In this document: piece after piece, positions 12,161 through 60,942 of the stretch
Layout: each line of letters starts with the position of its first letter
Numbering within the stretch: the first letter of the stretch is position 1
Assembly (NCBI RefSeq): GCF_040515995.1
Contig: NZ_CP159485.1
Span: forward strand, 1,364,001 to 1,428,000
Source: Proteinivorax hydrogeniformans
GTDB lineage: Bacteria; Bacillota; Proteinivoracia; Proteinivoracales; Proteinivoracaceae
Direction of reading: 5' to 3'
Length of the DNA: 64,000 bases
Translations under genes and position numbers: made by a program
Notes under the pieces: model-generated
What the model saw: only the letters and a program-made list of their open reading frames with translations
The model's database searches: none
What the model was told of the DNA's origin: nothing

Positions 12161-12271
12161 AACCAATATGTCGCGATATATCATATTTAACTGCTAATTG
12201 CAGGATTTGTGCTTTGTAAGTTGAAGTATATTATATTAACTAATTTTAATGGATAGATGAGGTGTGTTAAA

Positions 12272-15148
12272 TTGGCAGATTACAAAGTTGTTATATCTTC
12301 TCTTGATGACTTAGCAAGTGCTGAGCGTTTGCGGGATTTTTATAAACTACAAAAAAAGCAAAAGCATCCTATATATTACTTACTTCCTTCAGTTAAGTGG
12401 TTAAATGCTGCGCGGAAAAGGCAACCCCAAATGGCATTTAAAACCTTTGATGATGTGGCGGAATTGATTCTGCGTAAGTCAAATGCCAGCTATTTACCGG
12501 TATCTGAAAGTGAGCGTATGCTTTTTTTTCAACAGCTTGTTTCAGATGATAACAAAGGGGAGAAAGAGGATTTATACAAAGGCAAGGCATATGCACAGAC
12601 TTATGGTCAGCTTAAAAGATTAGGGTTAAAAATAGATGATCTACCTAAAAGTTTAATTAATATTAAGCCTATACTTAAAGAGTATGAAGATAAGTGGGTC
12701 GAAGATAAAGGGCTGTTAGATCCAGAAAACAGAATTCATAAAGCTGTTAGTTTATCAGAAGAAGAGCAGCTGCCTATTAGTCACGTGGTTATAGATGGAT
12801 ATATGGACTTTAGTCCGTTACAGTACTCATTGCTACGCTGTTTGTATAACCAGGGGATACCTGTAACTGTATTTATTCCCGACGTCAAAGATGCGGGAAT
12901 AATAGATGAAACTATAAAAAACTTGATGGATATTGGATTTTCCAAAAGGGATGAAGCAGCAAGTTATTACCTTAACCCAAAAGTTTCTGTGAAAAAGGCA
13001 GCTTCTAAAGAAGAAGAAATAAGAGGAGTGCTAGCAGAGATAGATGCAAAGGTTAAAAGTGGCGCTGATATTAATGATATTGGCCTGTTACCAGCAGATG
13101 ATAGTTATATGCCTCAAATAGAAAGGGTTTGTAAAGAGTATCACCTGCCTCTAAAAATAACCAAAAAGGCGTCTGTATCCCACTCTATGCTTTATAAAAC
13201 CCTAACACTTACCCTAAGACAACAGTCATTTGCAAATAAGTGGGAAAAAGTAGCTTTAGTAGATCAGCTATTTCAGCTTCTTTTTTATGATAACCAAAAG
13301 TATTGGGAATTAAAAAAAGAGTTTATGAGTAACGGTACTTTACCAGAGGATGTTGAGGAAAAGTTTCTTCGTTGTGTGAGTTTTAGGCAGAGCTTATCTA
13401 GCAAGGTCTCGCTGGTAGAGAGGATAGGCTCCCTTTTAAGCTTTTTAGATGAGCTAGAGTTGTCGAAATCTTGGCGTGAGAACCTTAAATGTGGGGTAGA
13501 TACCAAGAAAGGGCAACAGATAAGACTAGAATGGGCTGTGCTTGATGCGTTAAAAGGTTTACTAGAGGATAAGAAAGAAAGCTTAGAAAGTCAGGGGCTT
13601 GTTGATCTTACTATCAATCATAACCTATTTTTTGAATGGCTTGATGAGTTAATAAAAAGTAAAAGCATATATATCCAAAGAAGGCCTGCTGTTGGTCTAT
13701 CTTTACACTCCTTTAGGGATACCGCTCTCTTTGAAGGTGATACTCTGTATGTACTGGGAATGAATGAAGGTACCTTTCCCAGCCTACATAAGTTAGGGGG
13801 GTATTTTCAGGAAAGTGATTTAAAGGAGCTACCAATACCTTATGGAATGCCCAATTCAGCTACGTTTAGAAAAAAAGATGCAGCTCTATTTTTGCAACTG
13901 TTTTATAAGGCTAGTAATTTAACTTTTTCATATGTGTCAGGGTGCGATCCAGAGCATGAATATCTTCCTTCTCCTTTTATCGAAGAATATTGTAGTAAAG
14001 AAAAAGATCAGTATCTTTCTGCAGAAAAAAGGTATAACAAAAAGGAAGTAATTACAAATCTAGAGGCAGTTGAACAATCTGCATACATGATGGGTGTGGG
14101 AAAAGATGTTAAAAAGGGTGCTAAGCATCTTTATGAGCACCTTGGTTTTATTAAACGCTTAGAAAAAGGGGTAGAGGAAGTAGAGCAAAAGTGGACACAA
14201 GGACTTATAAAACAGGAGATTCCCGTTACCTCTTTGGAGAGATATGTCTCCTGCCCTTTTAGATATGGGTTAGAAACATTGCTACAAGTCAAAGAGCCAG
14301 ATAAAAAACAGGATAGGCTTGACCCAATGCAAACAGGGTCGATGTTGCACAGGGTGATAGAGAGATTTTATAAAAGTATAGACGCCATAGGTAAGCCTTT
14401 TGGAAGTTTAAAGGAGGAAGTTAAGCTTGATGGCGAAGGTATTTTGATGGATATTTTCGAGCAGGAATGGGCAAAAATTGTTAACGCCCATTATGAGTTG
14501 ACGGATTTAGATTTGGAGCTAGAAAAAGAGCGCTGGCAAAAAAAGCTCAGCAAGTGGTGGAAGGCTGAGCTTATGATGTTTTGGAATAACGATAAAATTA
14601 AGGATATGAAATTACACAGCCTAGAACAGCCTTTGACCATTCATTTGGAGGTTGACTCAGAAAATACCGTTGTGCTAACTGGCAAAGTTGACAGACTAGA
14701 TATTGACGATAATGGGTTTGTAATTTATGACTATAAGTCCTCTACTGTTAGGTTTAACTTTGAAAAAGACGTAGCCTGTGGACTTAAGTTGCAGCTGCCG
14801 TTATATATGCTAGCTATAGAGGAAAGGCTTGAAAAAACAGCTTATGGGGCAGCTTATATTTCTTTAAAAGAGCCACACAAACGGGCGACAAATAGTGTTT
14901 GGCAAAGTGAATATGCTCAAAGGGGATCAAAATTTAAGGCAAGTTCAGCTGCAAACAAAGAGGAATGTTTAAACTCAGATGTACTTTTTGATAAATATAA
15001 TCTTACCACTAGGATAGGGGAATTATTTGAAAAGATAAGGTATGACTATTCTGTGACTCCACTTAAATGCTATGGAGGGTGCCCCTATAATATAGTGTGT
15101 CGCGTAACCGATGAATTAATTGAAGAAGCAGAGGGGGAGTGGAAATGA
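12272..15148 (+). CDS. addB: AddB-type helicase/nuclease subunit
   Basis: AddB pairs with AddA to unwind and degrade double-strand ends until a Chi-type site, producing substrate for RecA. The C-terminus holds a PD-(D/E)XK nuclease (VIYDYKSS near residue 830) and the cysteines of an iron-sulfur staple (SLERYVSCPFRYG plus CYGGCPYNIVC). The helicase-like N-terminus is divergent. At 958 residues it is shorter than the B. subtilis protein. TTG at 12272 is preferred over ATG at 12257 because ATGAGGTG is the ribosome binding site. The stop overlaps the addA start. Confidence 0.93.
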   Translation: MADYKVVISSLDDLASAERLRDFYKLQKKQKHPIYYLLPSVKWLNAARKRQPQMAFKTFDDVAELILRKSNASYLPVSESERMLFFQQLVSDDNKGEKEDLYKGKAYAQTYGQLKRLGLKIDDLPKSLINIKPILKEYEDKWVEDKGLLDPENRIHKAVSLSEEEQLPISHVVIDGYMDFSPLQYSLLRCLYNQGIPVTVFIPDVKDAGIIDETIKNLMDIGFSKRDEAASYYLNPKVSVKKAASKEEEIRGVLAEIDAKVKSGADINDIGLLPADDSYMPQIERVCKEYHLPLKITKKASVSHSMLYKTLTLTLRQQSFANKWEKVALVDQLFQLLFYDNQKYWELKKEFMSNGTLPEDVEEKFLRCVSFRQSLSSKVSLVERIGSLLSFLDELELSKSWRENLKCGVDTKKGQQIRLEWAVLDALKGLLEDKKESLESQGLVDLTINHNLFFEWLDELIKSKSIYIQRRPAVGLSLHSFRDTALFEGDTLYVLGMNEGTFPSLHKLGGYFQESDLKELPIPYGMPNSATFRKKDAALFLQLFYKASNLTFSYVSGCDPEHEYLPSPFIEEYCSKEKDQYLSAEKRYNKKEVITNLEAVEQSAYMMGVGKDVKKGAKHLYEHLGFIKRLEKGVEEVEQKWTQGLIKQEIPVTSLERYVSCPFRYGLETLLQVKEPDKKQDRLDPMQTGSMLHRVIERFYKSIDAIGKPFGSLKEEVKLDGEGILMDIFEQEWAKIVNAHYELTDLDLELEKERWQKKLSKWWKAELMMFWNNDKIKDMKLHSLEQPLTIHLEVDSENTVVLTGKVDRLDIDDNGFVIYDYKSSTVRFNFEKDVACGLKLQLPLYMLAIEERLEKTAYGAAYISLKEPHKRATNSVWQSEYAQRGSKFKASSAANKEECLNSDVLFDKYNLTTRIGELFEKIRYDYSVTPLKCYGGCPYNIVCRVTDELIEEAEGEWK

Positions 15149-18100
15149 ATTTTAACCCTGAACAAAAAGAAGCCATATACAGCGAAAATCCTTTGATCCT
15201 TATTTCAGCTGGAGCGGGCTCTGGTAAAACCCGAGTGTTAACTGAAAGGTTTTTAAATATATGCCAGCAAAAACTAAACGAATTTTTAGAGGGGTCAACT
15301 TCTGATATAGGTGCTACGGTAAAAGAAATAGTGGCCATTACCTTTACGGAAAAGGCAGCTAGAGAAATGAAGGAAAGAATCAGAGGGGAACTAAATACAA
15401 AGTTAGAAGAGCTAGACAAGCTAGAGGATGAAAAGAATGTAAATATAGCTAAAAAATTTTGGCAACAACAAAAGGAAGACTTAGATAACGCTTATATAAC
15501 AACTTTTCATAGTTTTTGTCATAAGCTTTTAACTAGGTTTGCTTTTAAAGCTAACTTGCCTCCCACATTTACCATGCTAGATGATATAGACTCTACCTTG
15601 CTTCAAAGCGAGTGCTTAGATGAAATGTTTGCTGATAAAACAAACTACTATAAATGGAAGGATGCTTTTATTTACTACTCAAAAGAGCAGCTAAAAAGAG
15701 CTATAAATTCCGTATATGCACAGATATGTGAAGCGCCAGAGCAAATCGATATAAAAACTTTTTTTGAAGCGGAAGAGATCTTAGCCCTGCAACAAGATCT
15801 ATTGCTAAAACAAAAGGCTTCATTACTTGAAAAGTTTTATCAGAAGGCCCAGCCATGTGTAGAAGAATTTCCCTCATCTAGTGAGTTAAAGGGTAAATTA
15901 CAGGAGTATGTGGAAAATATATCTAATCATTTTGGAAAAGTTGACCTTAACAACATAGATTATGATGAGTGTTATGAGTTGTTGCAGGAGGTAATGCCTA
16001 AAAGGAAGGTAAGTAGCTGGGAGGATAAATGTCCTGCTTTGTTTGAGCTATATGTAGATATCTATAACCCCTTGAAACAAAAATGGAAAAACATACCTGA
16101 TTTTCCTACAGAGAAAAGAGAGCAGTTTCTAAGTATTATTAGTTGCTTTGCAGAAATGCTTTGTATTTTTGATGAAAAATATACAAAGAAAAAGATAGAA
16201 AAAGCAGCCTTGGATTTTTCTGACTTACAAAAAAAGGCCATCAATTTACTAGAAAACGAGGATGTTAGGGCTACTTGCAGGCAGGAATTTAAGCATTTTA
16301 TGGTTGATGAATTTCAAGATACAAATAAACTACAGATGAAGATGTTAGACTATATACAGCCTAGATTTCAGTTTATCGTAGGTGATGAAAAGCAGTCTAT
16401 TTATAGATTTAGAGGTGCTGACGTAACGGTAATGAGAGGATTGCAAAATAAGGTTAAGCAATCTGATGGATATATTAATATGAACAGAAATTATCGAAAC
16501 TGTCACTCTATAATCGGTTTTGTAAATGCCATCTTCTCTGAGGTTATGAGAGAGTCGGAAGACAACGCTCCTTACAGCATTAACTACAGTCCTTTAGTTA
16601 GTAATCGGGATGATAAAGAGGAGCAAGAGGTAAAAGTAGAGCTTATAGAGATGACTGAAAATGACGAGGAAGAAATAGAAAAAGATGATGACTCACAGGT
16701 AAGCGAAGTAGATTGTTATGACAGTGAGTTTGATATGCTAACAGAGCGTATGCTTGAAATCGCCCAAAGTGAGAAAAAGCTTGTAAGAGAAAAGGACACA
16801 GGTGTTTGGCGCAAAGCTCAATGGAGAGACTTTGCAATCTTAGTTCCGTCTAGAACAGGACTTATAGAGTTGGAAAAGTGCCTTAAAGATAAGAACATAC
16901 CCTTTGTGGTACATGGTGGTATAGGTTTTTTCGCAAAACAAGAGGTAAAAGACATGCTGGCATTACTTAGGTGGATTGCAAGGCCCTGGGAATCTACCTA
17001 TATTGCTGCTGTTCTTAGAAGCCCTATTATAGGTATCACGTTAGATGAGATGTTTGCCATAAAAGCATGTGGCGATGTAGATAATTGGCAAGGGTTTGCA
17101 GACTTTATTTATAATAGATGCTATTTCAATGAAAGTGGGCTAGCTACACAAACTAAGGCTAAACTAAATAAGTTTTATAATTTATTTACTATTTTTGTAC
17201 CTCTAACCCCACAGCGAGCGTTTTCGGATACCTTATATGAAGTTTTTAACAATAGCGGATTAAAACAGACCTTGCTTATGCAACCAAACTCGCTACAACT
17301 TATCAAAAACGTTGAAAAGCTAATAGAAACTATGAACGAGCAAAATCCCAGTTCTTTAGAGGAGCTTTTAGAAAAGATTGATGTTTTAGCGATGCTAGGG
17401 GATAGAGAGGGGGAGGCGGAAGCTGAGTTGCCTGAAGGGAACATGGTTCACATAATGACGGTTCATGCTTCTAAAGGTCTAGAGTTTCCCATAGTTTGCC
17501 TGCCCAGACTTAATCGCCAGCTACAAAAAGATAGCGGCTCTTTTAGATTTGACGATAAAATGAGGCTTGTTGCTAAATTTACTCAGGAAAAAAAGAACAA
17601 TCCTTTTTCAGATGAAGAAATAGTTACGCCTGGGTTTAATATAGTTAAAAGCGAAAGTGATATAGCAGCAGCAGAGGAATCCAAACGTTTGTTCTATGTC
17701 GCTGCTACACGAGCACGAGATTATTTAATTATGTCCGCTAAGGACAGACTGCAAAAGAACTCTTGGTATGAGATGCTTTTAGAAAGCTTAGATACAAACC
17801 CCGGTATTTTAAAATGTATGATACGAAAAAATCAAAGTCAAGTTGTAAAACAAAGCAAATGGGAGCAGACAAAAGATGAGTTTGTTGCTCAAACAGTATC
17901 GGAAGAAAAGGTTGCTCCTTACACCTTTTCGGTTTCAGAAATTATGGACTTTATGAATGATCGGCAAAAGTATTACGAAAGTTACGTGCTTAAATTGCAT
18001 CCTGATTGGTTAAGAGAGGAGGAAATAAAAGCTGATGATAAAGCAAAAGCCGATGATAAACAGGATAAGTTTATTATCTCAGCTACAGATTTTGGTACGG

Positions 18101-18615
18101 TGGTCCATAGAGCTTGCGAACTTTATGACCAGGGCTTTGGTGAAGATGAAGCTGTGTTAGAAGCAATATCTGTTTTATTTGATGACGATGAAATTCCCAC
18201 TAATATTAAAGAAATTAAATTAAGAGTGATGAAGCAGCTAGAAAACTATAAAAAGATAGAAAGTCAAATCCCCAAGGATCATATAAGTAGCGAATGGAGC
18301 TTTGCTGTTGAGATTGCTGGGGCCTATATTATAGGTGAGATTGATAAAGTTTTTATAAAAGACGGCAAACACTCGCTAATGGATCTAAAAACTAATAAAA
18401 CAATTGACACAGATAGCTATAAACCCCAAGTTACCCTTTATAAAATGGCATATGAAAAAGAGATGGGTGTAGAAGTAGAAGAGGTATCGCTATTTTTTAT
18501 GAACTTTGGAGAAAAAGGAATCATCAAGCTGAAGCCAGAAGCAGCTTATGAAAAGGAAGTTGAAGAAGCAATTAAAGATATGACCCAATTATGGAGAAGT
18601 CTTGAGGAACAGTAG
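15145..18615 (+). CDS. addA: AddA helicase-nuclease subunit
   Basis: This UvrD-type superfamily 1 helicase with a C-terminal nuclease has 1,157 residues from ATG at 15145, which overlaps the addB stop as ATGA. Visible motifs are Walker A ISAGAGSGKT, motif Ia AITFTEKAAREM, motif II FMVDEFQDTN, motif III GDEKQSIYRFRGA, motif V IMTVHASKGLEF and motif VI LFYVAATRARD. The nuclease has GEIDKVF and LMDLKTNK. A GTG at 15139 lies too close to the ribosome binding site GAGGGGG (15131-15137). No LexA box was seen before addB. Confidence 0.95.
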   Translation: MNFNPEQKEAIYSENPLILISAGAGSGKTRVLTERFLNICQQKLNEFLEGSTSDIGATVKEIVAITFTEKAAREMKERIRGELNTKLEELDKLEDEKNVNIAKKFWQQQKEDLDNAYITTFHSFCHKLLTRFAFKANLPPTFTMLDDIDSTLLQSECLDEMFADKTNYYKWKDAFIYYSKEQLKRAINSVYAQICEAPEQIDIKTFFEAEEILALQQDLLLKQKASLLEKFYQKAQPCVEEFPSSSELKGKLQEYVENISNHFGKVDLNNIDYDECYELLQEVMPKRKVSSWEDKCPALFELYVDIYNPLKQKWKNIPDFPTEKREQFLSIISCFAEMLCIFDEKYTKKKIEKAALDFSDLQKKAINLLENEDVRATCRQEFKHFMVDEFQDTNKLQMKMLDYIQPRFQFIVGDEKQSIYRFRGADVTVMRGLQNKVKQSDGYINMNRNYRNCHSIIGFVNAIFSEVMRESEDNAPYSINYSPLVSNRDDKEEQEVKVELIEMTENDEEEIEKDDDSQVSEVDCYDSEFDMLTERMLEIAQSEKKLVREKDTGVWRKAQWRDFAILVPSRTGLIELEKCLKDKNIPFVVHGGIGFFAKQEVKDMLALLRWIARPWESTYIAAVLRSPIIGITLDEMFAIKACGDVDNWQGFADFIYNRCYFNESGLATQTKAKLNKFYNLFTIFVPLTPQRAFSDTLYEVFNNSGLKQTLLMQPNSLQLIKNVEKLIETMNEQNPSSLEELLEKIDVLAMLGDREGEAEAELPEGNMVHIMTVHASKGLEFPIVCLPRLNRQLQKDSGSFRFDDKMRLVAKFTQEKKNNPFSDEEIVTPGFNIVKSESDIAAAEESKRLFYVAATRARDYLIMSAKDRLQKNSWYEMLLESLDTNPGILKCMIRKNQSQVVKQSKWEQTKDEFVAQTVSEEKVAPYTFSVSEIMDFMNDRQKYYESYVLKLHPDWLREEEIKADDKAKADDKQDKFIISATDFGTVVHRACELYDQGFGEDEAVLEAISVLFDDDEIPTNIKEIKLRVMKQLENYKKIESQIPKDHISSEWSFAVEIAGAYIIGEIDKVFIKDGKHSLMDLKTNKTIDTDSYKPQVTLYKMAYEKEMGVEVEEVSLFFMNFGEKGIIKLKPEAAYEKEVEEAIKDMTQLWRSLEEQ

Positions 18616-20699: not shown

Positions 20700-20817
20700 T
20701 GTAAATGCTATCCTAAAAGTGTACCAGTTAGAGCCATTTCGCTAGCGAATTAGTTTACCACCTATCATAAAATTCCTGTAAAATATAGTCAGATATATTT
20801 TCAGGAGGTTGAGGGGT

Positions 20818-22296
20818 GTGAAAATTGAAATGGATATGTATCAACAGATTCGCAAGCGATATCTAAACGGAGAGTCTCAAAGATCTATTGCAAAGAGTTT
20901 AGGCATCTCACGTCAATCGGTAAAAAAGTATTGTGACGGGTCAGCGCATCCAGAAAAAAGAAAGGAGTATAACAGAAGCCCAGTTAAAGTTACAAAAGAA
21001 GTAGAAGACTTTATCATAGGTTGTCTTAAGTCAGATGAAGAGGATAATATTAAAAAGCAAAAACATACTGCTAAACGCATATATGAACGACTTGTTGATG
21101 AGAAAGAATTTACAGGTGGTGAATCAACTATACGAAATGCTGTAAAAAAACTACGTGCAGAACAGTTAGTTCCACCTCAAAGCAATGTTCCTCTATCATA
21201 TGAGCCAGGTGAGGCAATTCAGATAGACTGGGGCGAAGCCACAGCCTACCTCGATGATAAGAAAAGAAAATTGTATACTTTTTGCGCTAGGCTATGTTAC
21301 AGCTGTGATATCTTTGTACAAGTCTTTAGAGCCGCCAATGAACAGGCTTTTTTAGAAGCGCAACAACGTATGTTTGATTTCTTTGGAGGAGTCCCCAGGC
21401 GAGTAATTTTTGATAATGCTAAAGTTGCAGTTAAAGAGGGTTTTGGAACCTATGCAAAACCACAAGATAAGTACTTTTCCTTCAGTGCCCATTATGCCTT
21501 TGAACTAGAGTTTTGTAACCCTGGTAAAGGAAACGAAAAGGGCCTTGTAGAAAACTTAGTTGGCTATTCTAGAAGAAATTTTTTAGTCCCTCTACCTAGG
21601 GTATCAAGTATAGAAGAGTTGAATCAAAAGCTACTGGAAGATTGCTTAAAGTACAGAGAAAAGCACCATATCAAAGGTCGCTCGAATGCTGTAAATGTAA
21701 TGTACCAAGAAGAAAAACAGTTTTTAAATCCGATTCCCCCGTACCGGTTTGATACAAGCAAAACTAAAATTGTTTCCGTTGATGATTACTCCACAGCTTG
21801 CTATGAAAGAAACTACTACTCTGTCCCTACCAAGTATTTAAGAAAGGATGTAACTGTAAAAGGCTACGGTAATGACATCCAAATTTTTTATCAGAATGAA
21901 GAAATAGCTACACATATAAGAAACTACTACTCAGGAAAAACAGAGTATAAGTTAGAACATTACATAGACTTAATTGAAAGAAAACCACGCTCTGTTTTCA
22001 ATGCTAAACCAGTTAAGCAAAATGTTACTGAAGAGCTTTTAATATGGGGCAAACAACTCCCCGGTGGTAACAGAGAAATGGTTAAACTCCTTCGCCTATG
22101 TCTAGACTATGGCGAAGAATATATACTTAGCATTAAAGAGGCGATTCCTGGGCATATTGTGCCAACTGTTGATATGATTAGAGCCCATTTAAGCAAACCT
22201 GTAGACACCCCTGTATTGAATCTAAATAAAGAGATAGCTGTCGAGGAGGTAGATTTAAATAAATACGATAAAAAATATGGAATGGTGGTGCAATAA
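20818..22296 (+). CDS. istA: IS21 family transposase IstA
   Basis: An N-terminal helix-turn-helix (RSIAKSLGISRQSVKKY) is followed by an rve-type catalytic core with Asp in IQIDWGEA, Asp in VIFDNAKVAV and Glu in KGLVENLVGYSRR. About 492 residues is normal for IstA. GTG at 20818 is preferred because AGGAGG at 20803-20808 abuts the alternative TTG at 20809. The frame is intact and ends directly at the istB start. Confidence 0.93.
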   Translation: MKIEMDMYQQIRKRYLNGESQRSIAKSLGISRQSVKKYCDGSAHPEKRKEYNRSPVKVTKEVEDFIIGCLKSDEEDNIKKQKHTAKRIYERLVDEKEFTGGESTIRNAVKKLRAEQLVPPQSNVPLSYEPGEAIQIDWGEATAYLDDKKRKLYTFCARLCYSCDIFVQVFRAANEQAFLEAQQRMFDFFGGVPRRVIFDNAKVAVKEGFGTYAKPQDKYFSFSAHYAFELEFCNPGKGNEKGLVENLVGYSRRNFLVPLPRVSSIEELNQKLLEDCLKYREKHHIKGRSNAVNVMYQEEKQFLNPIPPYRFDTSKTKIVSVDDYSTACYERNYYSVPTKYLRKDVTVKGYGNDIQIFYQNEEIATHIRNYYSGKTEYKLEHYIDLIERKPRSVFNAKPVKQNVTEELLIWGKQLPGGNREMVKLLRLCLDYGEEYILSIKEAIPGHIVPTVDMIRAHLSKPVDTPVLNLNKEIAVEEVDLNKYDKKYGMVVQ

Positions 22297-52067: not shown

Positions 52068-52826
52068 TTAATCAACAATTTGGATTGGTGAGATGTATTT
52101 TGCCTTTAAATCTAAGAAAACAGCATTTAATTGCTTAGGACCATTAGGCTCCACATTAAATCTTGTAGGCATCTTAGTAATAAACTTGTTAATAACATCT
52201 TCCTTTTTTACTCCTAAAATCGCATTATAAGGTCCTGTCATCCCAACATCTGATATGTATAAAGTGCCTTTGTCTAATGCTCGATGGTCAGCAGTTTGCA
52301 CATGAGTGTGAGTACCAACTACTGCATTTACTTTACCGTCTAAATACCAACCCATTGCGATTTTTTCTGAAGTTGCTTCAGCATGAAAATCTAAGAGACT
52401 GTAGTCATAGTCATTACTAGCTAACATTTCGTCTATACACTTAAATGGACAGCTAAGAGGTGGCATATAGACAAGACCAGAAATATTTACAATTAGTAAA
52501 GTTTTTCCTTCAATTGTAACCTTTGTATAGCCTTTTCCAGGTGTTCCTGTAGGGTAGTTTGCAGGACGTACAATTCTATCATCACCCTCGATAAAGTTCA
52601 ATATCTCTTTTTTATCCCAAACATGGTTTCCCATAGTAAGTATGTCAATACCAGCTTCAAAAAGTTCGTCAGAAGCTTTTTGGCTCAACCCTTTGCCGCC
52701 AGCTGCATTTTCCCCGTTTGCTATTATTAAGTCAGGTTCATACTTTTCAATTATCTCTGGTAAATGGGTTTTTATAATTTTTCTCCCTGGCTTACCTACT
52801 ATATCACCAATAAAAATAATTTTCAT
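52068..52826 (-). CDS. ymdB: YmdB-type metallophosphoesterase (2',3'-cyclic nucleotide phosphodiesterase)
   Basis: Metal-binding residues are in IFIGDIVGKPGR (Asp8), NGENAAGGKG, GNHVWDK and VGTHTHVQTAD. In B. subtilis YmdB affects biofilm versus motility gene expression. The length of 252 residues fits. It lies directly behind rny in the usual order. Confidence 0.95.
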   Translation of the reverse strand: MKIIFIGDIVGKPGRKIIKTHLPEIIEKYEPDLIIANGENAAGGKGLSQKASDELFEAGIDILTMGNHVWDKKEILNFIEGDDRIVRPANYPTGTPGKGYTKVTIEGKTLLIVNISGLVYMPPLSCPFKCIDEMLASNDYDYSLLDFHAEATSEKIAMGWYLDGKVNAVVGTHTHVQTADHRALDKGTLYISDVGMTGPYNAILGVKKEDVINKFITKMPTRFNVEPNGPKQLNAVFLDLKAKYISPIQIVD

Positions 52827-52852: not shown

Positions 52853-52880
52853 AAAATAAAGGGATTTCTCCCTTTATTTT
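52853..52880. terminator. Hairpin at the end of rny
   Basis: AAAATAAAGGGA (52853-52864) pairs with TCCCTTTATTTT (52869-52880) around TTTC. It overlaps the last codons of rny. Confidence 0.8.
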
Positions 52881-54418
52881 GCATATTCAACAACTCTAGT
52901 TTCTCTAATTAAGATAACCTTTATTTGACCAGGATATTCTAATTCATCTTCTATTTTCTTAGTTATATCCCTAGCTATTGAAGATGCCATTGCATCATCA
53001 ATTTGATCAGGCTTAACCATTATTCTAACTTCTCTACCTGCTTGTATGGCAAATGACTTTTCTACACCTTCAAAAGAATCTGCGATGTTCTCAAGATTTT
53101 CTAGACGTTTTATATAGTTTTCTAGAGTTTCCCTGCGAGCACCTGGCCTTGCGGCAGAAATTGCGTCTGCTGCTTGTACAATCACAGCTTCAACAGTTTG
53201 AGGTTCGATATCACCATGGTGAGCAGCAATAGCGTGTATAACCTCTTTCGACTCTTTGTACTTCTTAGCTAACTCAGCACCAATGGCAACATGAGGACCT
53301 TCCATTTCATGGTCAACTGCTTTTCCAATATCATGAAGTAAACCGCCCCGCTTAGCTAGCTTAATATCAGCGTTTAATTCAGCAGCCATAACTCCCGCTA
53401 AGTGAGAAACTTCTAAAGAGTGTTTTAATATGTTCTGCCCATAACTTGTTCTGAATTTCAACCTGCCTAATAGCTTAATAAGTTCGGGATGGATGCCGTG
53501 TACCCCAGTTTCAAAAGTGGCTTGTTCCCCTTCTTCACGAATCTGGTTGTCCACCTCTTTTTTAGCCTTATTAACCATTTCTTCAATACGTCCAGGATGA
53601 ATTCTACCGTCAACTATAAGCTTTTCTAAAGCTACTCTTGCAATTTCTCTTCGAACAGGATCAAAACCTGATAAAATAACAGCTTCTGGCGTGTCATCGA
53701 TAATTAAATCTATGCCAGTTAATGTTTCAAGTGCTCTTATGTTTCTACCTTCACGTCCGATTATTCGTCCCTTCATCTCATCATTAGGTAAAGGAACTAC
53801 AGAAACAGTACTTTCAGCAACATGATCGGCAGCGCACCGTTGAATTGCAGTTGCTATGATTCGATTTGCTTTCTTTTCAGCTTCATCTTTAGCCTGATTT
53901 TCAGCTTCTTTAATCATTACTGCCATTTCGTGCTGTATCTCTTTTTCAACTTGTGACAATAATTGCTCTTTAGCTTCGTCAGTAGTTAAAGAAGAAATCC
54001 TTTCAAGCTCTTTAGTCTGCTCTTTTTGAGCATTTCTTACTTGTTCCTCTTGCTTTTTAATTGCATTTTCTCTGTTTGCTAAATTTTCTTCTCTTTTTTC
54101 AACACTTTCTGACTTTCTATCCAAAGACTCTTCTTTTTGCATTACTCTTTTTTCCAGCCTTTGAACTTCAACTCTTCGCTCTTTTGATTCTTTTTCAAAC
54201 TCGCTACGAAGTTTTAGTATCTCTTCTTTTGCTTCAAGAATCATCTCACGCTTTTTGCCCTCTGCTTCACGCTCAGCATCAGAAACAATGTTTTTTGCTG
54301 CTTGCTCAGCAGATGCAATTTTCGCTTCTGCGATGAGTTTGCGTATCAAATAACCCAACCCTAAGCCAATCAACAAAGCTATGGGAATGATTATCCAAAA
54401 TAGTGTAGTTGAAATCAT
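52874..54418 (-). CDS. rny: Ribonuclease Y
   Basis: A membrane anchor (residues ~5-25) is followed by a long coiled coil (~30-200), a KH domain ([23 protein letters not shown]) and an HD domain (LLHDIGKA). It starts mRNA decay at the membrane. ATG at 54418 is preferred since the upstream GTG lies inside the ribosome binding site AAGGGGGTG, giving 514 residues. Confidence 0.97.
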
Positions 54419-54539
54419 GTTCACCCCCTTAATAAACTATAAAAATATTACGAACTTTCAGGTTACACAAGAACTAATACTATGTAAGTATTAACCCCCA
54501 CAAAATTAACATTAACAAAAATTATAACCTCTTTACATT

Positions 54540-55217
54540 TTATATTTTTTTACAGATAGTGTCAAGTAAGTTACCTTCCCGTACTGAACTTATGCCATTT
54601 TTCAACTCAACCTGGAAAGATTTATCTGAAGCTTCCATTATATAAGGATTATGGGTAATTAAGATGATTTGCCTATTAAAACCACTACTTATATGATTTA
54701 AAAATTCTACAACTTTGTCAACGTAATCTTCGCTGACATGCTTTGCTGGTTCATCAAGTACCAATGGACCTTTTAACATGGGACGATAAGTCTGTAATAG
54801 TGCAATTCTTAGCGCAAGCGAAACGATATCCACCACTCCGCCTCCCCTTGAGTCTTCTGGGTTGGTCTTAACTTCCTTTCCGTTATAGGTCGAACATACA
54901 AAAAAGTGAGCTTCTACCCTATTTCTAACTTCTTTAAATTCAATTTTAAAGCTATAGCTTTCATCAAAAATAAACTGTAAGGCGTTCGTTACCAAAATCT
55001 CAATTTGCTCTTTAGCCTGGGTTCTACCATGGTCCGCTGACTTATTAAGTAGAACTCTCACTTGTGAATATACATCCATTTCATCTTTTAAATTGTTTAC
55101 TTTTTGTTCTATTGATTTTTTTTGTCTTGTTAACTGGCTTTTCTCCCCATCGAGAATGGCGATCTTAGTATTTGCTTTGTTAAGTAAGCTTTTTAATATT
55201 TTTATACTTTCTTCCAT
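54540..55217 (-). CDS. Split Rad50/SbcC: C-terminal ATPase half
   Basis: This 225-residue protein has a short coiled coil (~1-60), an ABC signature-like SRGGGVVDIVSLALRIALL near residue 125, Walker B LVLDEPAKHVS and the His switch THNPYI. It lacks Walker A, which lies in the product of 55475-56920. Together they would form one SMC-type ATPase head. ATG follows GTAGGGGGC, 12 bp after the small coiled-coil gene. It could instead be a RecF/RecN-like ATPase, but the SbcD-like neighbour favours Rad50. Confidence 0.8.
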   Translation of the reverse strand: MEESIKILKSLLNKANTKIAILDGEKSQLTRQKKSIEQKVNNLKDEMDVYSQVRVLLNKSADHGRTQAKEQIEILVTNALQFIFDESYSFKIEFKEVRNRVEAHFFVCSTYNGKEVKTNPEDSRGGGVVDIVSLALRIALLQTYRPMLKGPLVLDEPAKHVSEDYVDKVVEFLNHISSGFNRQIILITHNPYIMEASDKSFQVELKNGISSVREGNLLDTICKKI

Positions 55218-55229
55218 AAGTATAGCCCC

Positions 55230-55472
55230 CTACCTAACTAAATCTTCGGGAATCATCTTTTTCACTTCGGCAATTAAATTGCTAACTTCTTTTTCTAACC
55301 TTTTAATCTCTTCATCTAAGTTATCAGGATCCACACCCATTTCTTGAATCTCCTTAAGCAAATCTTCTTTTTGTTGTTTTAACGAATCCATTTTAGCTTC
55401 AGCTTTGTACCTGTCAGCCTGTAATTTTTCTAAGTCTTTTTTAAGTTTGTTTATCTCATTTGATATAGACAT
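55230..55472 (-). CDS. Small coiled-coil protein within the split SbcC operon
   Basis: The 80 residues from ATG at 55472 (MSISNEINKLKKDLEKLQAD) are almost wholly heptad-patterned with many Lys and Glu, broken at GVDPDN. AGAGGTG provides the ribosome binding site, and the ATG is two bases after the stop of the N-terminal half. It lies between the two ATPase halves and could be a separate arm or bridge of the coiled coil. No known family was recognised. Confidence 0.7.
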   Translation of the reverse strand: MSISNEINKLKKDLEKLQADRYKAEAKMDSLKQQKEDLLKEIQEMGVDPDNLDEEIKRLEKEVSNLIAEVKKMIPEDLVR

Positions 55473-55474
55473 TT

Positions 55475-56920
55475 TTACACCTCTTTCCATTTGCTTAATA
55501 TTTTGTTTTTCTGTGAATCCGGTATGTCTTGTTCACATAAAGGACAATGGTTTATAGAGTTTAACAGCCGATTAAGGTCATTAACTAACAGTTTATGTTT
55601 ATGACTTAAGTTTAATAGGTATTTAGCTCCTTTATTTCTTCTAGACTCTATTGTCCTTATTTCAGCGTAAACTTCTTTGACTTTTTTATTTTCTTCTACC
55701 TTTAATTCGATAGAGTTGATTTTTCGTGTTATTTCTTTTTCTACACCTTTATCAAATAGTTTTTGTTCGATGCTTTTAAGCTCTCGGTTATATGCAGAAA
55801 GTTTAGAGTAAAGCTGCTTAAAGGTAGCAAGCTTATCATTTAAAAATATTACTTGCTGCAATTTTTCTAAGTTGGTAGGTAGTTCGTTCGTTTTTTCTAT
55901 TATTTTTTGACTGGCTAGCATTTCTTTATTTACGGCATCTAGCTTACTCTTTGCTTTTATAGTGGAATTTAAATCCTCTAAAGTGTTTTGAGCCATTTTT
56001 GTTTTTTTAAAACCCTTATCAACAAATGAAGCTTTCTCTAAAAAAGTAAGTGATCTTTTAATTCCTTGGTTACAAGCGTATAATTTAGTCGATATACTGT
56101 TAAGGCTTGAGAGTCTATGTCCATAATTTTCTGCTTGTTGGATAAGAGTTAATGCAGAACTAACCTGTTTGGTTTTTGCTAAGGTGACGTCTAGCTCATC
56201 TATGGCTTTGTTATGACTAGATAATCTCTTTTTTAGCAAATTTAAGGCTTTAAGCCTTTTAATTTTATTTTCTACTTCTTCATAAGTCTTGTTAGCTTTA
56301 TCGATCTGTATTTTTTGTCTTTCTAAGTTTGAATACTTGTCTAACTGCTCGTCTATTGATTGCAGCTCTTCTGCTTTATAATTTAATTTAGAATTTATTT
56401 CCTTTATATTTGAAGATACGTTTCTTGAAGCTGCATCGATAAAATGCACTCCAACTATGGTGCCTATGGCCTTTGCCCTTACACTTCCCGACCCACTTAA
56501 TAAAAATGGTGGGTCTAACTGTTTTGCGATATTAATTTCAGGTTTTTGATCTTTATCTAAAAATACGGGGCTTATATGTAAAACCGCCTGAACTATTCTT
56601 AGGACCTCATTACTAACACCGCTGTACTCGGCTTTATTTCCATCAGTAATAATGATGTATTTATTGGAGTTATTTTGACGCACACGGGTAACTTCGGTGC
56701 CATTGTCTAGCTTAACAGATACCGAGCATTTATTTTGTCCGTGGTGTATAATATCTCCGCCTTTAGGTTGATTATATAAAACCCACCTTAATGCCCTAAT
56801 AATAGAAGACTTGCCCTGATCTGAAGGGCCAGTGATGACATTGACTCCATCATGAAACTCTAGTTTGCTATCTGTATGAGATTGAAAGTTAATAAGGTGT
56901 ATTGATTTTATAACTGACAC
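55475..56920 (-). CDS. Split Rad50/SbcC: N-terminal ATPase half ending in a zinc-hook CxxC
   Basis: The head begins IKSIHLINFQSHTDSKLEF and has Walker A GPSDQGKSSII near residue 31. A long predicted coiled coil (~170-450) follows, and the protein stops soon after CPLCEQD (near residue 463), which looks like half of a Rad50 zinc hook. A full SbcC would continue back through a second coil to Walker B. Here that part is in the next two genes. GTG follows AGGAGGGAGG. It lies 26 bp after the SbcD-like gene. Confidence 0.82.
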   Translation of the reverse strand: MSVIKSIHLINFQSHTDSKLEFHDGVNVITGPSDQGKSSIIRALRWVLYNQPKGGDIIHHGQNKCSVSVKLDNGTEVTRVRQNNSNKYIIITDGNKAEYSGVSNEVLRIVQAVLHISPVFLDKDQKPEINIAKQLDPPFLLSGSGSVRAKAIGTIVGVHFIDAASRNVSSNIKEINSKLNYKAEELQSIDEQLDKYSNLERQKIQIDKANKTYEEVENKIKRLKALNLLKKRLSSHNKAIDELDVTLAKTKQVSSALTLIQQAENYGHRLSSLNSISTKLYACNQGIKRSLTFLEKASFVDKGFKKTKMAQNTLEDLNSTIKAKSKLDAVNKEMLASQKIIEKTNELPTNLEKLQQVIFLNDKLATFKQLYSKLSAYNRELKSIEQKLFDKGVEKEITRKINSIELKVEENKKVKEVYAEIRTIESRRNKGAKYLLNLSHKHKLLVNDLNRLLNSINHCPLCEQDIPDSQKNKILSKWKEV

Positions 56921-56946
56921 TTAGCCTCCCTCCTTTTGAAAGACTG

Positions 56947-57927
56947 CTAGAAATCTTCGTTATCATTAAAGCTTTGTTGAACAGTTGAGACTATTGATAA
57001 GGCCTTTTCCTTTACTTTTGGAGATATGTCTTCATTGTTTGCAATTAAACTAATTATCTGTTCAGCACTGACGTGCTGATTAGATGTTATGTCCGTTATG
57101 TTTGTTAGAAAATCATCTAGCTTATCAGTTTGAATTTGTTTTTCCTCTAGCTGGCTTCTATCTAAAACTATGTCACCACGTTGTGCAGCTTTAATTGGTA
57201 TAAATTTGATTTCAGGTACTTTACCTTTGGTTAATTGTATTTCTAGCATCTGAGGGCTTCTACTTAACTCTGACAAACTATTATCAACCCTTAGTAATGA
57301 TCCTGGGTTTATAAACTTTTTCCCATTGTAGTCTACGCATCCAAATCCATGGTGATAGTGGCCAGCTAAAGTTATGTCAGCTTCTGTGTTGCTGATTGAT
57401 TCAACTAAGGTCATTTTATCTACAGGAACACTTTTTTTAGGCAAAAGCATACCATGGACAAGGTGAATAGAAAAATCACAATCAAACTGTTTTTTAACAA
57501 TATATTGTTCTTTGCTTTCATAATCATAAATGTAGTTGGCCCCTGTTAATTGAACACCAACATCCTTTGTGTTAACGATTTTACCGTCATGACTTAATAG
57601 ATCAATTATACCTAGCTTAGACATAAGCCCTAACATTGTACGCGGAAGTGTTTTAGGATTATGTCCATAAATGTCATGGTTACCAGCTATCCCCATGATA
57701 GGGCATTTACATTTTTGTAAAATACCTACTATCTCCCCTAAAACTGAAAGGGAAATGTTAGGTCTATCAAAAAAATCACCACCATGTAACAATAAGTTAA
57801 CTTCGTGTAAATTACAATAATTCACCACTTCATCTAGCTTATTGTAACAGGTATTAACAAAGTCATCGGTCCTACTTCTAGGTCCACCACCCCGAAAATG
57901 AGTGTCTGTAATATAGACAATCTTCAT
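56947..57927 (-). CDS. SbcD/Mre11-like metallophosphoesterase
   Basis: The nuclease-type phosphoesterase motifs are in order: YITDTHFRG, LLHGGDFFDRP, GIAGNHDIYGH, LVHGM and LAGHYHHG. This resembles the SbcD/Mre11 subunit that pairs with SbcC/Rad50 to cut hairpins and blocked ends. A C-terminal ~80-residue region may contact the ATPase. The 326-residue gene is coupled to recX upstream and to the split ATPase downstream. Confidence 0.85.
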   Translation of the reverse strand: MKIVYITDTHFRGGGPRSRTDDFVNTCYNKLDEVVNYCNLHEVNLLLHGGDFFDRPNISLSVLGEIVGILQKCKCPIMGIAGNHDIYGHNPKTLPRTMLGLMSKLGIIDLLSHDGKIVNTKDVGVQLTGANYIYDYESKEQYIVKKQFDCDFSIHLVHGMLLPKKSVPVDKMTLVESISNTEADITLAGHYHHGFGCVDYNGKKFINPGSLLRVDNSLSELSRSPQMLEIQLTKGKVPEIKFIPIKAAQRGDIVLDRSQLEEKQIQTDKLDDFLTNITDITSNQHVSAEQIISLIANNEDISPKVKEKALSIVSTVQQSFNDNEDF

Positions 57928-57931
57928 ATTA

Positions 57932-58366
57932 TCAATCTTCCTTTTCTAAAAACTTAATTGCTTGCATAGAATGGTTATGGTTAAAGCCCCTACGGCGAAG
58001 GAACCCATAAAGTTGTTGAAAGGTTTTGTTACTAGATTGCTTTTTCTCAACTAACCTTTTTGCAGTGGTAAAAAAATCAATATCTAATGAGTCAAAAGCC
58101 TTGTCTACTTTATCATTTTCTACCCCTCTTTTGAATAGCTCAAATCTTATTTTCTGTGGCCCGTTTAGTTTGCTTTGCGCATGATAATTTATGAATTGTA
58201 CTGCATAGTCATCGTCGTTTATATATCCATATCCTTCTAGCTTTTGTACAACTTCTTCGATATTCAAGCTAGAAATACCTTTGTTACTTAGATAATCCTG
58301 AAGTTCTTTTTTTGTCCTTGGTTTATATGATAAGTACCGTAAAGCCATGTTTTGTGCTTTATTCAT
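57932..58366 (-). CDS. recX: RecX regulator of RecA
   Basis: Three-helix repeats typical of RecX are visible: ALRYLSYKPRTKKELQDYL, VVQKLEGYGYINDDDYAVQFI and RFELFKRGVENDKVDKAF, plus LYGFLRRRGFNHNHSMQAI. At 144 residues it is short but complete. It lies 95 bp after recA, beyond the recA hairpin. RecX limits or remodels RecA filaments. Confidence 0.9.
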   Translation of the reverse strand: MNKAQNMALRYLSYKPRTKKELQDYLSNKGISSLNIEEVVQKLEGYGYINDDDYAVQFINYHAQSKLNGPQKIRFELFKRGVENDKVDKAFDSLDIDFFTTAKRLVEKKQSSNKTFQQLYGFLRRRGFNHNHSMQAIKFLEKED

Positions 58367-58461: not shown

Positions 58462-59481
58462 CTACTCCTCTTTAGCATCCGCCTCTTCATTAGACTCTAC
58501 TAGAAGGTTGTAGTGTTGCCTTATCATTTTTTCTATTGTTTCTAACATATCAGTATTTTCTTTTAAATATTGCTTTGCATTTTCTCTACCTTGTCCTAAA
58601 CGCTCTTTTTCAAATGAATACCAAGCACCACTTTTATTTACAATATCTATACCAGCAGCTAAGTCTAATATGCACCCTTCTTTTGAAATTCCTTCACCGT
58701 ACATTATATCAAACTCTGCCTTTTTAAATGGAGGGGCTAGTTTGTTTTTAACAATTTTTACCCTTGTCCTATTTCCAACCATATCTTGACCTTGCTTTAA
58801 CGTCTCAATTCTTCTTACATCTAACCTGACAGAGGAGTAAAATTTAAGCGCTCTACCACCAGTTGTAGTTTCTGGGTTACCAAACATGACACCAACCTTT
58901 TCACGGAGTTGGTTTATAAAAATAGCTGTTGTTTTGGACTTGCTAATGGCACCTGATAGCTTACGTAAAGCTTGACTCATCAGGCGTGCTTGTAGTCCAA
59001 CATGAGAATCACCCATTTCGCCTTCAATCTCGGCTTTAGGTACTAAAGCTGCAACTGAGTCAACAACTACAATATCTACAGCACCACTTCTTACTAAAGC
59101 TTCAGCTATCTCTAAAGCTTGCTCTCCAGTATCCGGTTGAGAAACGTATAGTTCATCAATATTAACACCTAAAGCTTTTGCATAAACCGGATCTAAGGCA
59201 TGCTCTGCATCGATAAAAGCTGCCGTGCCACCAATCTTTTGAGCTTCGGCTATAGCGTGTAAGGCAACTGTCGTTTTTCCCGAAGATTCCGGACCATAAA
59301 TCTCTATAATTCTTCCTCTAGGAAACCCTCCGGTCCCTAATGCTATATCTAAGTCGAGGCATCCTGATGGTACTGTAGAAACTGAAAAGTTAGTGTTTTC
59401 ACCCAACTTCATTACAGAGCCTTTACCAAACTGCCTTTCAATTTGATGTAAGGCCATATCTAATGCTTTTTTCTTTTCCAT
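58462..59481 (-). CDS. recA: RecA recombinase
   Basis: Walker A GPESSGKT, the Walker B region [12 protein letters not shown] and the L2 loop region [15 protein letters not shown] are intact. It makes the nucleoprotein filament for strand exchange and LexA cleavage. ATG at 59481 ([11 protein letters not shown]) lies correctly behind GGGGAGGAG, giving 339 residues; a longer frame upstream would run through the promoter. It is controlled by the LexA-box promoter at 59515-59543. Confidence 0.98.
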
Positions 59482-59514
59482 ATGTAACTCCTCCCCACAA
59501 TTCAACTTATCCCC

Positions 59515-59543
59515 ATTATAGAACATATTTTCGATTTAATCAA
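59515..59543 (-). promoter_or_regulatory. recA promoter with LexA box
   Basis: On the minus strand TTGATT (59543-59538) and TATAAT (59520-59515) are 17 bp apart. The spacer holds CGAAAATATGTTC (59533-59521), one base away from CGAAC-N4-GTTC. The -35 lies inside the end of the upstream phosphoesterase gene. Confidence 0.88.
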
Positions 59544-60942
59544 GGTTATTTTCTGTTTGATCTAATATTAACTGCCTGTTTAATGAAAAACCAGAACTAA
59601 GGTTAAATACGTCTATAGAGTCTATTGCTGCCACTTTATAGTTAGCTTCACCGTCTTGTTTAAGGTGTATCAAAACCAAGCTGTACGGAACCTCGTTTTT
59701 ACTAAGAAGTCCCCGAATACCAGATGCACCTGTACTTCCTGGATTTATAATTATGCTATCATTATCCCCAGCATTTACCTCCAGCCTATGTGTATGCCCT
59801 TGGAAAAGTAAAGGGTACTCGCCCTGTAGCTCTTGTGATATTAACGGGTGGTGAGTATTTATAATTAACGGTTCTTTGCCGCTTTGTTCAATTGTTTGTC
59901 TAAGCTTATCAACCTGTTGTATATAAACCTCATCAGGTTCTACTGCCATGGCTGTAGACTCCGAGGATGGGTCGGCAACACCGGCAATTACAACCCCATT
60001 AACATCTACAACATCATCTACAAGAACGATTACATCCTCCATTTGCTGTAAACGCTCTATTACTGCAGGGGAGTCATGATTACCTGGGGATATAACGTAA
60101 GGTATGTCAATATTATCAAGCTTAGATATAAGCTCAGCCTCCAAAGAAGTGCCGTAATCAGTTATATCACCTGTATCCACCACCATATCAACATTAAATG
60201 ACCTGATGACCTGACCAATAAAATCATAGGCTACGGGATGATTATGAATATCTGATACATGGAGGATCTTAACATCACCGTCTACTGTCCCTAAAGGATC
60301 TAGATACTGTATACTTTCAAAGAGAGTGTACAAATTTACGGTAAGCATTTCTAATTGTTGAGAAAAATCCTCAAGTTTCTCAAAGCTTTCCTCTAGCAGA
60401 CCGAACATCCAGGGGGCCGCGTAGAGAATTCCTTCAAATTCAGGGTTTTCAAAGGCTTTATCATCATAGGTGGAAAAAGTAACACCTATCAAAATCCCCA
60501 TCAAAACAAGTCCTATTACTCCACCTAAAAGAACATGTTTGGGCTTTTTGTAAAAAACCCCTACAGCAAGACACCCGCCTAAAGTAGCTAAAACTAACAA
60601 TCTAACAATGAACACTCTAAATCTTTCAGTTATTGTCGCTATTACTAATGCCATAATTTCTTCAGTTTTTTCCGGATCTGTAATTTCCTCCATAACGTCT
60701 AGATTAATATTGGTCAAATTTACAGCTAGTTTAAGTGGAGGTATATGAGTTTGGGCTCTAACAGTTCCGATTGGAGGGATATTTACCTCGGTATATCCCC
60801 TATCAAAGATTTGTATTGCTAAATCAATTTCAAAAGCAAAAACTTGAAATGATGTTGTGCTTAACAACGAGACCATAATGATTGACCCAATTAATGCTAG
60901 AAGGATTATTTGGAATAAATCTTTATGTTTTTTTATCCACAA
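59536..60942 (-). CDS. Membrane metallophosphoesterase
   Basis: Three hydrophobic segments (residues ~10-30, ~113-130, ~136-155) precede a calcineurin-type phosphoesterase with HVSDIHNHP, VDTGDITDYG, SPGNHDSP, INTHHP and FQGHTHR. The part between residues 30 and 110 probably lies outside the cell, and the topology may place the enzyme there too. The substrate is unknown. It sits between cinA and recA, and its end overlaps the recA promoter. Confidence 0.82.
   Translation of the reverse strand: MWIKKHKDLFQIILLALIGSIIMVSLLSTTSFQVFAFEIDLAIQIFDRGYTEVNIPPIGTVRAQTHIPPLKLAVNLTNINLDVMEEITDPEKTEEIMALVIATITERFRVFIVRLLVLATLGGCLAVGVFYKKPKHVLLGGVIGLVLMGILIGVTFSTYDDKAFENPEFEGILYAAPWMFGLLEESFEKLEDFSQQLEMLTVNLYTLFESIQYLDPLGTVDGDVKILHVSDIHNHPVAYDFIGQVIRSFNVDMVVDTGDITDYGTSLEAELISKLDNIDIPYVISPGNHDSPAVIERLQQMEDVIVLVDDVVDVNGVVIAGVADPSSESTAMAVEPDEVYIQQVDKLRQTIEQSGKEPLIINTHHPLISQELQGEYPLLFQGHTHRLEVNAGDNDSIIINPGSTGASGIRGLLSKNEVPYSLVLIHLKQDGEANYKVAAIDSIDVFNLSSGFSLNRQLILDQTENNLD

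Follow-up and report, generated by a model that had tools for sequence, protein, structure and literature searches.

A predicted Mre11-Rad50-type ATPase-nuclease of Proteinivorax hydrogeniformans and phages with its Rad50/SbcC part encoded as three polypeptides

The Rad50/SbcC ATPase is taught as one chain that folds back on itself at a zinc hook. Here, we describe a four-gene set in Proteinivorax hydrogeniformans (GCF_040515995.1, contig NZ_CP159485.1, positions 1,364,001 to 1,428,000; this whole stretch of 64,000 nucleotides [nt] is referred to as the window) that, judging from its sequence motifs and relatives, very probably codes for a complete Mre11-Rad50 (SbcCD-type) DNA-end-processing ATPase-nuclease, with the Rad50/SbcC part made as three polypeptides: an N half, a small coil protein, and a C half. 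The set resembles the single-chain systems, E. coli SbcCD and archaeal Mre11-Rad50, in having all of the ATPase motifs, a CxxC zinc hook, and a Mre11-type nuclease encoded beside the ATPase. It differs from them in its three chains, the break right after the hook, an extra subunit of 80 amino acids (aa), an arm with a 47-aa repeat, and its location between recA and rny.

Relatives of the individual pieces are known in phages. The families phrog_16465, phrog_18563, and phrog_15167 (gp32, gp34, and gp35 of Bacillus phage vB_BboS-125) share the N-coil-C split and have an SbcD-like gene nearby, although in vB_BboS-125 SbcD follows C instead of preceding N and an extra gene is inserted; the three products are entered separately in the annotation as an exonuclease, a hypothetical protein, and an ATPase, not as one enzyme. 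Mre11/Rad50 fusion proteins with SbcD joined to SbcC in the same order have been described, and the fusion of Bacillus phage 0305phi8-36 lacks one P-loop segment (Yoshida et al. 2011, PMC3175470). The absent segment probably corresponds to the C half, as expected if SbcD and N are fused and C is a separate gene; the passages concerned recognize neither a split nor a separate C gene (PMC3175470). The B. subtilis-type YhaO-YhaN pair likewise combines an SbcD-like protein with a large ATP-binding cassette (ABC) ATPase. The P. hydrogeniformans genome has a look-alike, a 972-aa AAA_27-type ABC-ATPase with a 438-aa SbcD-like gene beside it (L005/L040, C1:2749370), but with one ATPase chain and at another genome site, and its architecture points to a second, separate system. 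The split form, its spread, and its stepped arm appear to be undescribed within the open-access literature to which our search was limited.

Architecture of the split set

All four genes are on the minus strand, in the run recA, recX, SbcD/Mre11-like, SbcC N half, 80-aa coil, SbcC C half, rny, and ymdB-like, and the first six (recA through the C half) are separated by short gaps (recX-SbcD, 4 nt; SbcD-N, 26; N-coil, 2; coil-C, 12). The SbcD-like subunit (56947 to 57927; 326 aa) is an open reading frame (ORF) for a calcineurin-type phosphoesterase (Pfam Metallophos, E 1e-12) with the motifs DTH, GGD, GNHD, HxxHG, and GHYHHG. Its metal ligands D8, H10, D51, N83, H84, D85, H190, and H192 are invariant (alignment A4) and make up the phosphodiesterase pattern of SbcD/Mre11 (DxH, GD, GNHD, H, GHxH), and the family profile matches Mre11 structures. 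The N half (55475 to 56920; 481 aa, GTG start; Pfam AAA_23, E 3e-17) consists of ABC lobe I, a helical arm, and half of a zinc hook. Residue conservation in 62 sequences marks its Walker A motif (GPSDQGKS, 56807 to 56830; G31, G36, and K37 invariant, D34 nearly so) and its half hook (CPLC, 55535 to 55546, about 20 residues from the chain end; C459, P460, and C462 invariant). The C half (54540 to 55217; 225 aa) has a short helical strand and ABC lobe II with signature, Walker B, D-loop, and H-loop, as identified with phrog_15167 and Rad50 structures. Its motifs are the signature SRGGGVVDIVSLALR, with its glycines (RGGGVVD) at 54837 to 54845 and G125-G127 invariant in alignment A5, the Walker B LVLDEP, with its Asp-Glu at 54750 to 54755 (D155 and E156, invariant in alignment A1), and the H-loop ITHN, in which H189 is also invariant. 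Between the two halves is the 80-aa helix-turn-helix subunit (55230 to 55472).

A preliminary description of this DNA, made by a model from the sequence alone, had placed these four ORFs at the above coordinates, with Walker A and a terminal CPLC in the N half, signature and Walker B in the C half, and all Mre11-type motifs in the nuclease gene, and in all of this it was correct. It had also called the middle piece a pure coiled coil; the piece is indeed helical and 80 aa long, but a conserved GVxPExLDxEI break stands between its two helices, so it is not a featureless coil.

Comparisons with structures agree with these assignments. Against the PDB, the N-family profile matches Rad50 lobe I and, at the profile end, the Rad50 hook structures 1l8d and 6zff, and the C-family profile matches the C-terminal half of archaeal Rad50. 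The AlphaFold2 (AF2) model of the N half (mean predicted local distance difference test [pLDDT] score 79.9, predicted template modeling score 0.39) has lobe I and long helices and ends in a hook from which a short helix returns, and a Foldseek search with it ranks Mre11-Rad50 first. Each piece also matches its own phage family: N matches phrog_16465 (491 positions, E 1e-64), the coil matches phrog_18563 (77 positions, E 1e-8), and C matches phrog_15167 (211 positions, E 2e-61). Because these families have the same borders for each piece, and all four genes keep the same order in dozens of genomes, the arrangement is far beyond chance. The SbcD-like protein scores 24.9 bits with TIGR00619 (sbcd), below the curated cut-off of 77.65, and the set falls far below the curated cut-offs of the SbcD and Rad50 models. 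Lobe I with Walker A, lobe II with signature, Walker B, and H-loop, and the CxxC hook are all present as in Rad50/SbcC, but both lobes are not on one chain and the hook is not mid-chain; since the lobes are on separate chains, we file the set as a split variant and not as ordinary SbcC.

The break is consistently at the hook. Of 130 N chains, 128 have CxxC in their final 60 residues, and the other two have broken frames; the motif is absent from all 119 coil chains and all 151 C chains. The earlier proposal of a natural break directly after the hook motif, giving three chains and a Mre11-like partner, is upheld; the same description supposed that a three-part ATPase of this kind could open or swap arms.

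Spread, gene order, and linkage

With the C half as query, a search of one genome per species found 280 relatives, the best 80 of which were read, and a viral scan gave 59; the gene-order counts rest on these 80 and 59. The order recA-(recX)-SbcD-N-coil-C, followed by rny, is found in ~65 cellular loci, the window included (L034 and L083 are one contig). Some 42 viral loci have the order N-coil-C-SbcD, and ~12 distant viral loci, most of them behind recA, have N-SbcD-C; in those of the latter that were inspected by eye, an ORF of ~80 aa and the same look precedes C. Of the 249 genomes sampled from the phylum, 41, belonging to 22 families, clearly have the C half, and it is present in many named Bacillota also. 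Presence was called above 120 bits; the next matches down were a single contig-end fragment (72 bits) and, from 52 bits downward, RecN, SMC, and transporter ATPases. The four-gene order that the preliminary description suggested looking for was found elsewhere, and that description's treatment of the set as a local oddity was too narrow for a widespread family, present in 41 of 249 genomes and 59 viral contigs.

The pieces could in principle be frameshift or decay products of one sbcC, or be joined by programmed frameshifting, and in the window the coil frame does continue past its ATG in the upstream direction without a stop codon, into the end of N. We regard this as extremely improbable. 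Over 117 same-strand loci, the coil is in all three frames relative to N (52, 33, and 32), with gaps from -128 to +3526 nt. In phages, as much as 3.5 kb intervenes, and in vB_BboS-125 an AP2-domain gene (L029, 7416 to 7988) is inserted at the very junction of N half and coil gene. N and C are unlinked in 11 genomes, and in the window each piece has its own ribosome-binding site, as judged by eye. No single N-coil-C ORF was found in the 249 sampled genomes. Frameshifted pieces of one gene in relatives, which the preliminary description had named as the finding that would speak against it, are excluded by the separation of the pieces in >100 loci. We note that the AP2 gene of vB_BboS-125 may be a homing element exploiting the split point.

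The unlinked arrangement is found in all 11 of the 11 Clostridia checked, Acetivibrio and Pseudobacteroides among them: C is alone, mostly between folD and rny, SbcD-N-coil is at another site, preceding rimO (both folD and rimO were identified by eye from sequence), and C and SbcD-N-coil are both retained. Genomes that seemed to have C only were so in appearance, with N found elsewhere in the genome. This unlinking would suit N and C being parts of separate machines, each pairing with itself or with other SMC-like proteins, but we consider that very improbable. N has Walker A and the Q-loop of lobe I but no Walker B, and C has signature, Walker B, and H-loop but no Walker A, so neither forms an ATP site alone; both are kept wherever looked at, and one natural SbcD-N-C fusion is known. 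This is a single 700-aa chain of SbcD, N head, and C head in genome G055 (locus L190, 5652 to 7754, minus strand), next to addB-addA. In B. subtilis, sbcDC adjoins addB-addA. Three viral contigs have SbcD-N fusions of 772, 707, and 769 aa. Together, the two kinds of fusion suggest that N, C, and SbcD belong to one complex, with an ATP site that is either divided between two chains or joined in one. The G055 protein is a natural hookless Mre11-Rad50.

Relation to SbcCD, and the arm

Canonical SbcD, scored above the curated cut-off, is present in 1 of 41 genomes with the split set compared with 94 of 208 others (Fisher p 1e-8, a value that overstates independence because the 249 sampled genomes share ancestry). 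A profile search of the P. hydrogeniformans genome finds no SbcD above the cut-off and no SbcC_Walker_B match. The split set mostly stands in for SbcCD. PF13558 was set aside as a marker of canonical SbcC, with TIGR00619 used for co-occurrence instead, since its strong matches (85 to 99 bits, many of them ORFs of 1100 to 1500 aa) look like Wadjet-type JetC and not SbcC. There is no sign that AddAB is replaced: the split genomes that were examined have AddA-like proteins, although most of these score under the curated cut-off. An addB (963 aa) and addA (1158 aa) pair is within the window at 12257 to 18615 on the plus strand.

A phage-type counter-defense or antiphage defense module captured beside recA, in place of a housekeeping end-processing enzyme, would fit the presence of the same set in viral contigs, distant profile matches to LmuB, GajA, and PtuA, and the position of the phages outside the chromosomal group in a tree. 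It is nonetheless unlikely, as the chromosomal loci occupy a constant position between recA and rny in isolates from many families, group together and are not scattered among phages, and anticorrelate with canonical SbcD; the defense matches are weak and cover the generic ABC head only or mostly. The full-length ATPase match with partner genes that typifies Lamassu, Gabija, or Wadjet systems was not found, and the neighbors are recA, recX, rny, and ymdB.

The 80-aa subunit is a conserved family, and its AF2 model (pLDDT 85) has helices at residues 2 to 44 and 49 to 73 around the conserved GVxPE turn; Foldseek gives no match with this model. In the window, the start at 55472 has a better ribosome-binding site, by eye, than the in-frame upstream ATG at 55490, which would give 86 aa. 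A second coil gene was sought in seven genomes and none was found, each of the seven having one. Self-comparison of 106 N arms reveals a 47-residue repeat (z of 53 relative to shuffles at lag 47, next best 37), and the distance from lobe I to the hook is stepped, at ~245, 291, and 340 residues in the main group and ~120, 175, and 225 in the distant ones. One 590-aa N half (L207, 1465 to 3237) has an arm part matched twice by the profile (positions 222 to 422), likely reflecting a gain of arm repeats. The N arm might also be built from short zigzag helices, although the AF2 helices are long (199 to 343, 352 to 390, and 393 to 455) and the repeat has no Gly/Pro turn.

Several observations, in addition to the shared ancestry of the sampled genomes, weigh against the set being a complete three-chain version of SbcCD. 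Three of 30 named split genomes also have canonical SbcD, so replacement is not absolute; some split copies look like prophage genes; and in the G055 fusion, arm, hook, and coil are all gone. The arm varies from ~117 to 346 residues but the 80-aa subunit is constant (81 +/- 4 aa at 121 loci), and the strand returning from the hook adds up to ~160 residues (~20 from N, 80 from the coil, and 60 from C) versus ~290 ascending. The returning strand suits the shortest arms, and the common 291-residue arm has ~130 residues without a partner at 1:1:1. A stepped arm beside a constant 80-aa subunit does not amount to a simple two-stranded coil at 1:1:1, and the surplus repeats may be self-folded, paired between two N chains, or lined by several coil subunits. 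It is possible, although doubtful, that the 80-aa subunit is a separate gene because several copies clad one arm, one per 47-residue repeat, the split enabling a modular, self-assembled lever of variable length; the arm steps of ~47 residues, the constant subunit with a first helix of 43 aa (about one repeat), and the 1:1:1 length mismatch are compatible with this arrangement.

For the three-chain Mre11-Rad50-type enzyme, a plausible mechanism can be modeled on the known one, from which we take the closing heads, the SbcD dimer at the foot, the hook-shared zinc, and the gated nuclease. N and C would associate into one ABC head, and two N:C heads would close on ATP; the SbcD-like protein would dimerize at the foot of the arms, and two N hooks would share one zinc. 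On its hook side, the arm would be clad by the 80-aa protein, and on its head side by the first 60 residues of C, the two together replacing the missing descending strand. Head opening would gate the nuclease at blocked or hairpin ends and hand ends to RecA, encoded just upstream, and with the hook at the end of its own chain, the arm could be free to lengthen or shorten by entire 47-residue modules.

Origin, neighboring genes, and significance

In a tree of SbcD plus C, 73 chromosomal loci group together with the phages outside, and locus L039, likely a prophage copy, falls among the phages. With support of 0.13 and midpoint rooting, a phage origin of the split set is only a suggestion. The preliminary description had offered a phage-derived version adopted beside recA: the phage counterparts and the position beside recA are as it supposed, and the tree is compatible, but the grouping behind a phage origin is poorly supported and its root arbitrary.

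The neighbors in the window are all on the minus strand. Upstream, recX (57932 to 58366; RecX_HTH1/HTH2 matches) and recA (58462 to 59526) precede the set, and recA is kept in ~65 loci; downstream are the conserved rny (RNase Y; 52874 to 54424) and a conserved ymdB-like phosphodiesterase gene (52068 to 52826). The recX product is short, at 144 aa compared with ~205 to 220 aa in most relatives, and the region before the first three-helix domain is absent. Directly upstream of recA is a gene for a 468-aa membrane-anchored calcineurin-like phosphoesterase (59536 to 60942, minus strand), with similar genes at the same position in loci L032, L033, L065, and L098. A candidate LexA box before recA (59520 to 59533, two mismatches) is no better than chance. 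Elsewhere in the window is an ORF resembling an IS21-family transposase (IstA), identified by eye at 20809 to 22296 on the plus strand.

The machine is of a known kind, but many Bacillota families and many phages appear to run it with the chain cut after the hook. The natural split would allow hook and arm to be changed, exchanged, or omitted without touching lobe II, so that what arm and hook contribute to the ATP-gated action of the nuclease could be tested directly. The stepped arms and the hookless SbcD-N-C fusion serve as natural experiments on this question. The split form would also account for a number of genomes seemingly without SbcCD, and would correct the annotation of many phages and hundreds of bacteria.

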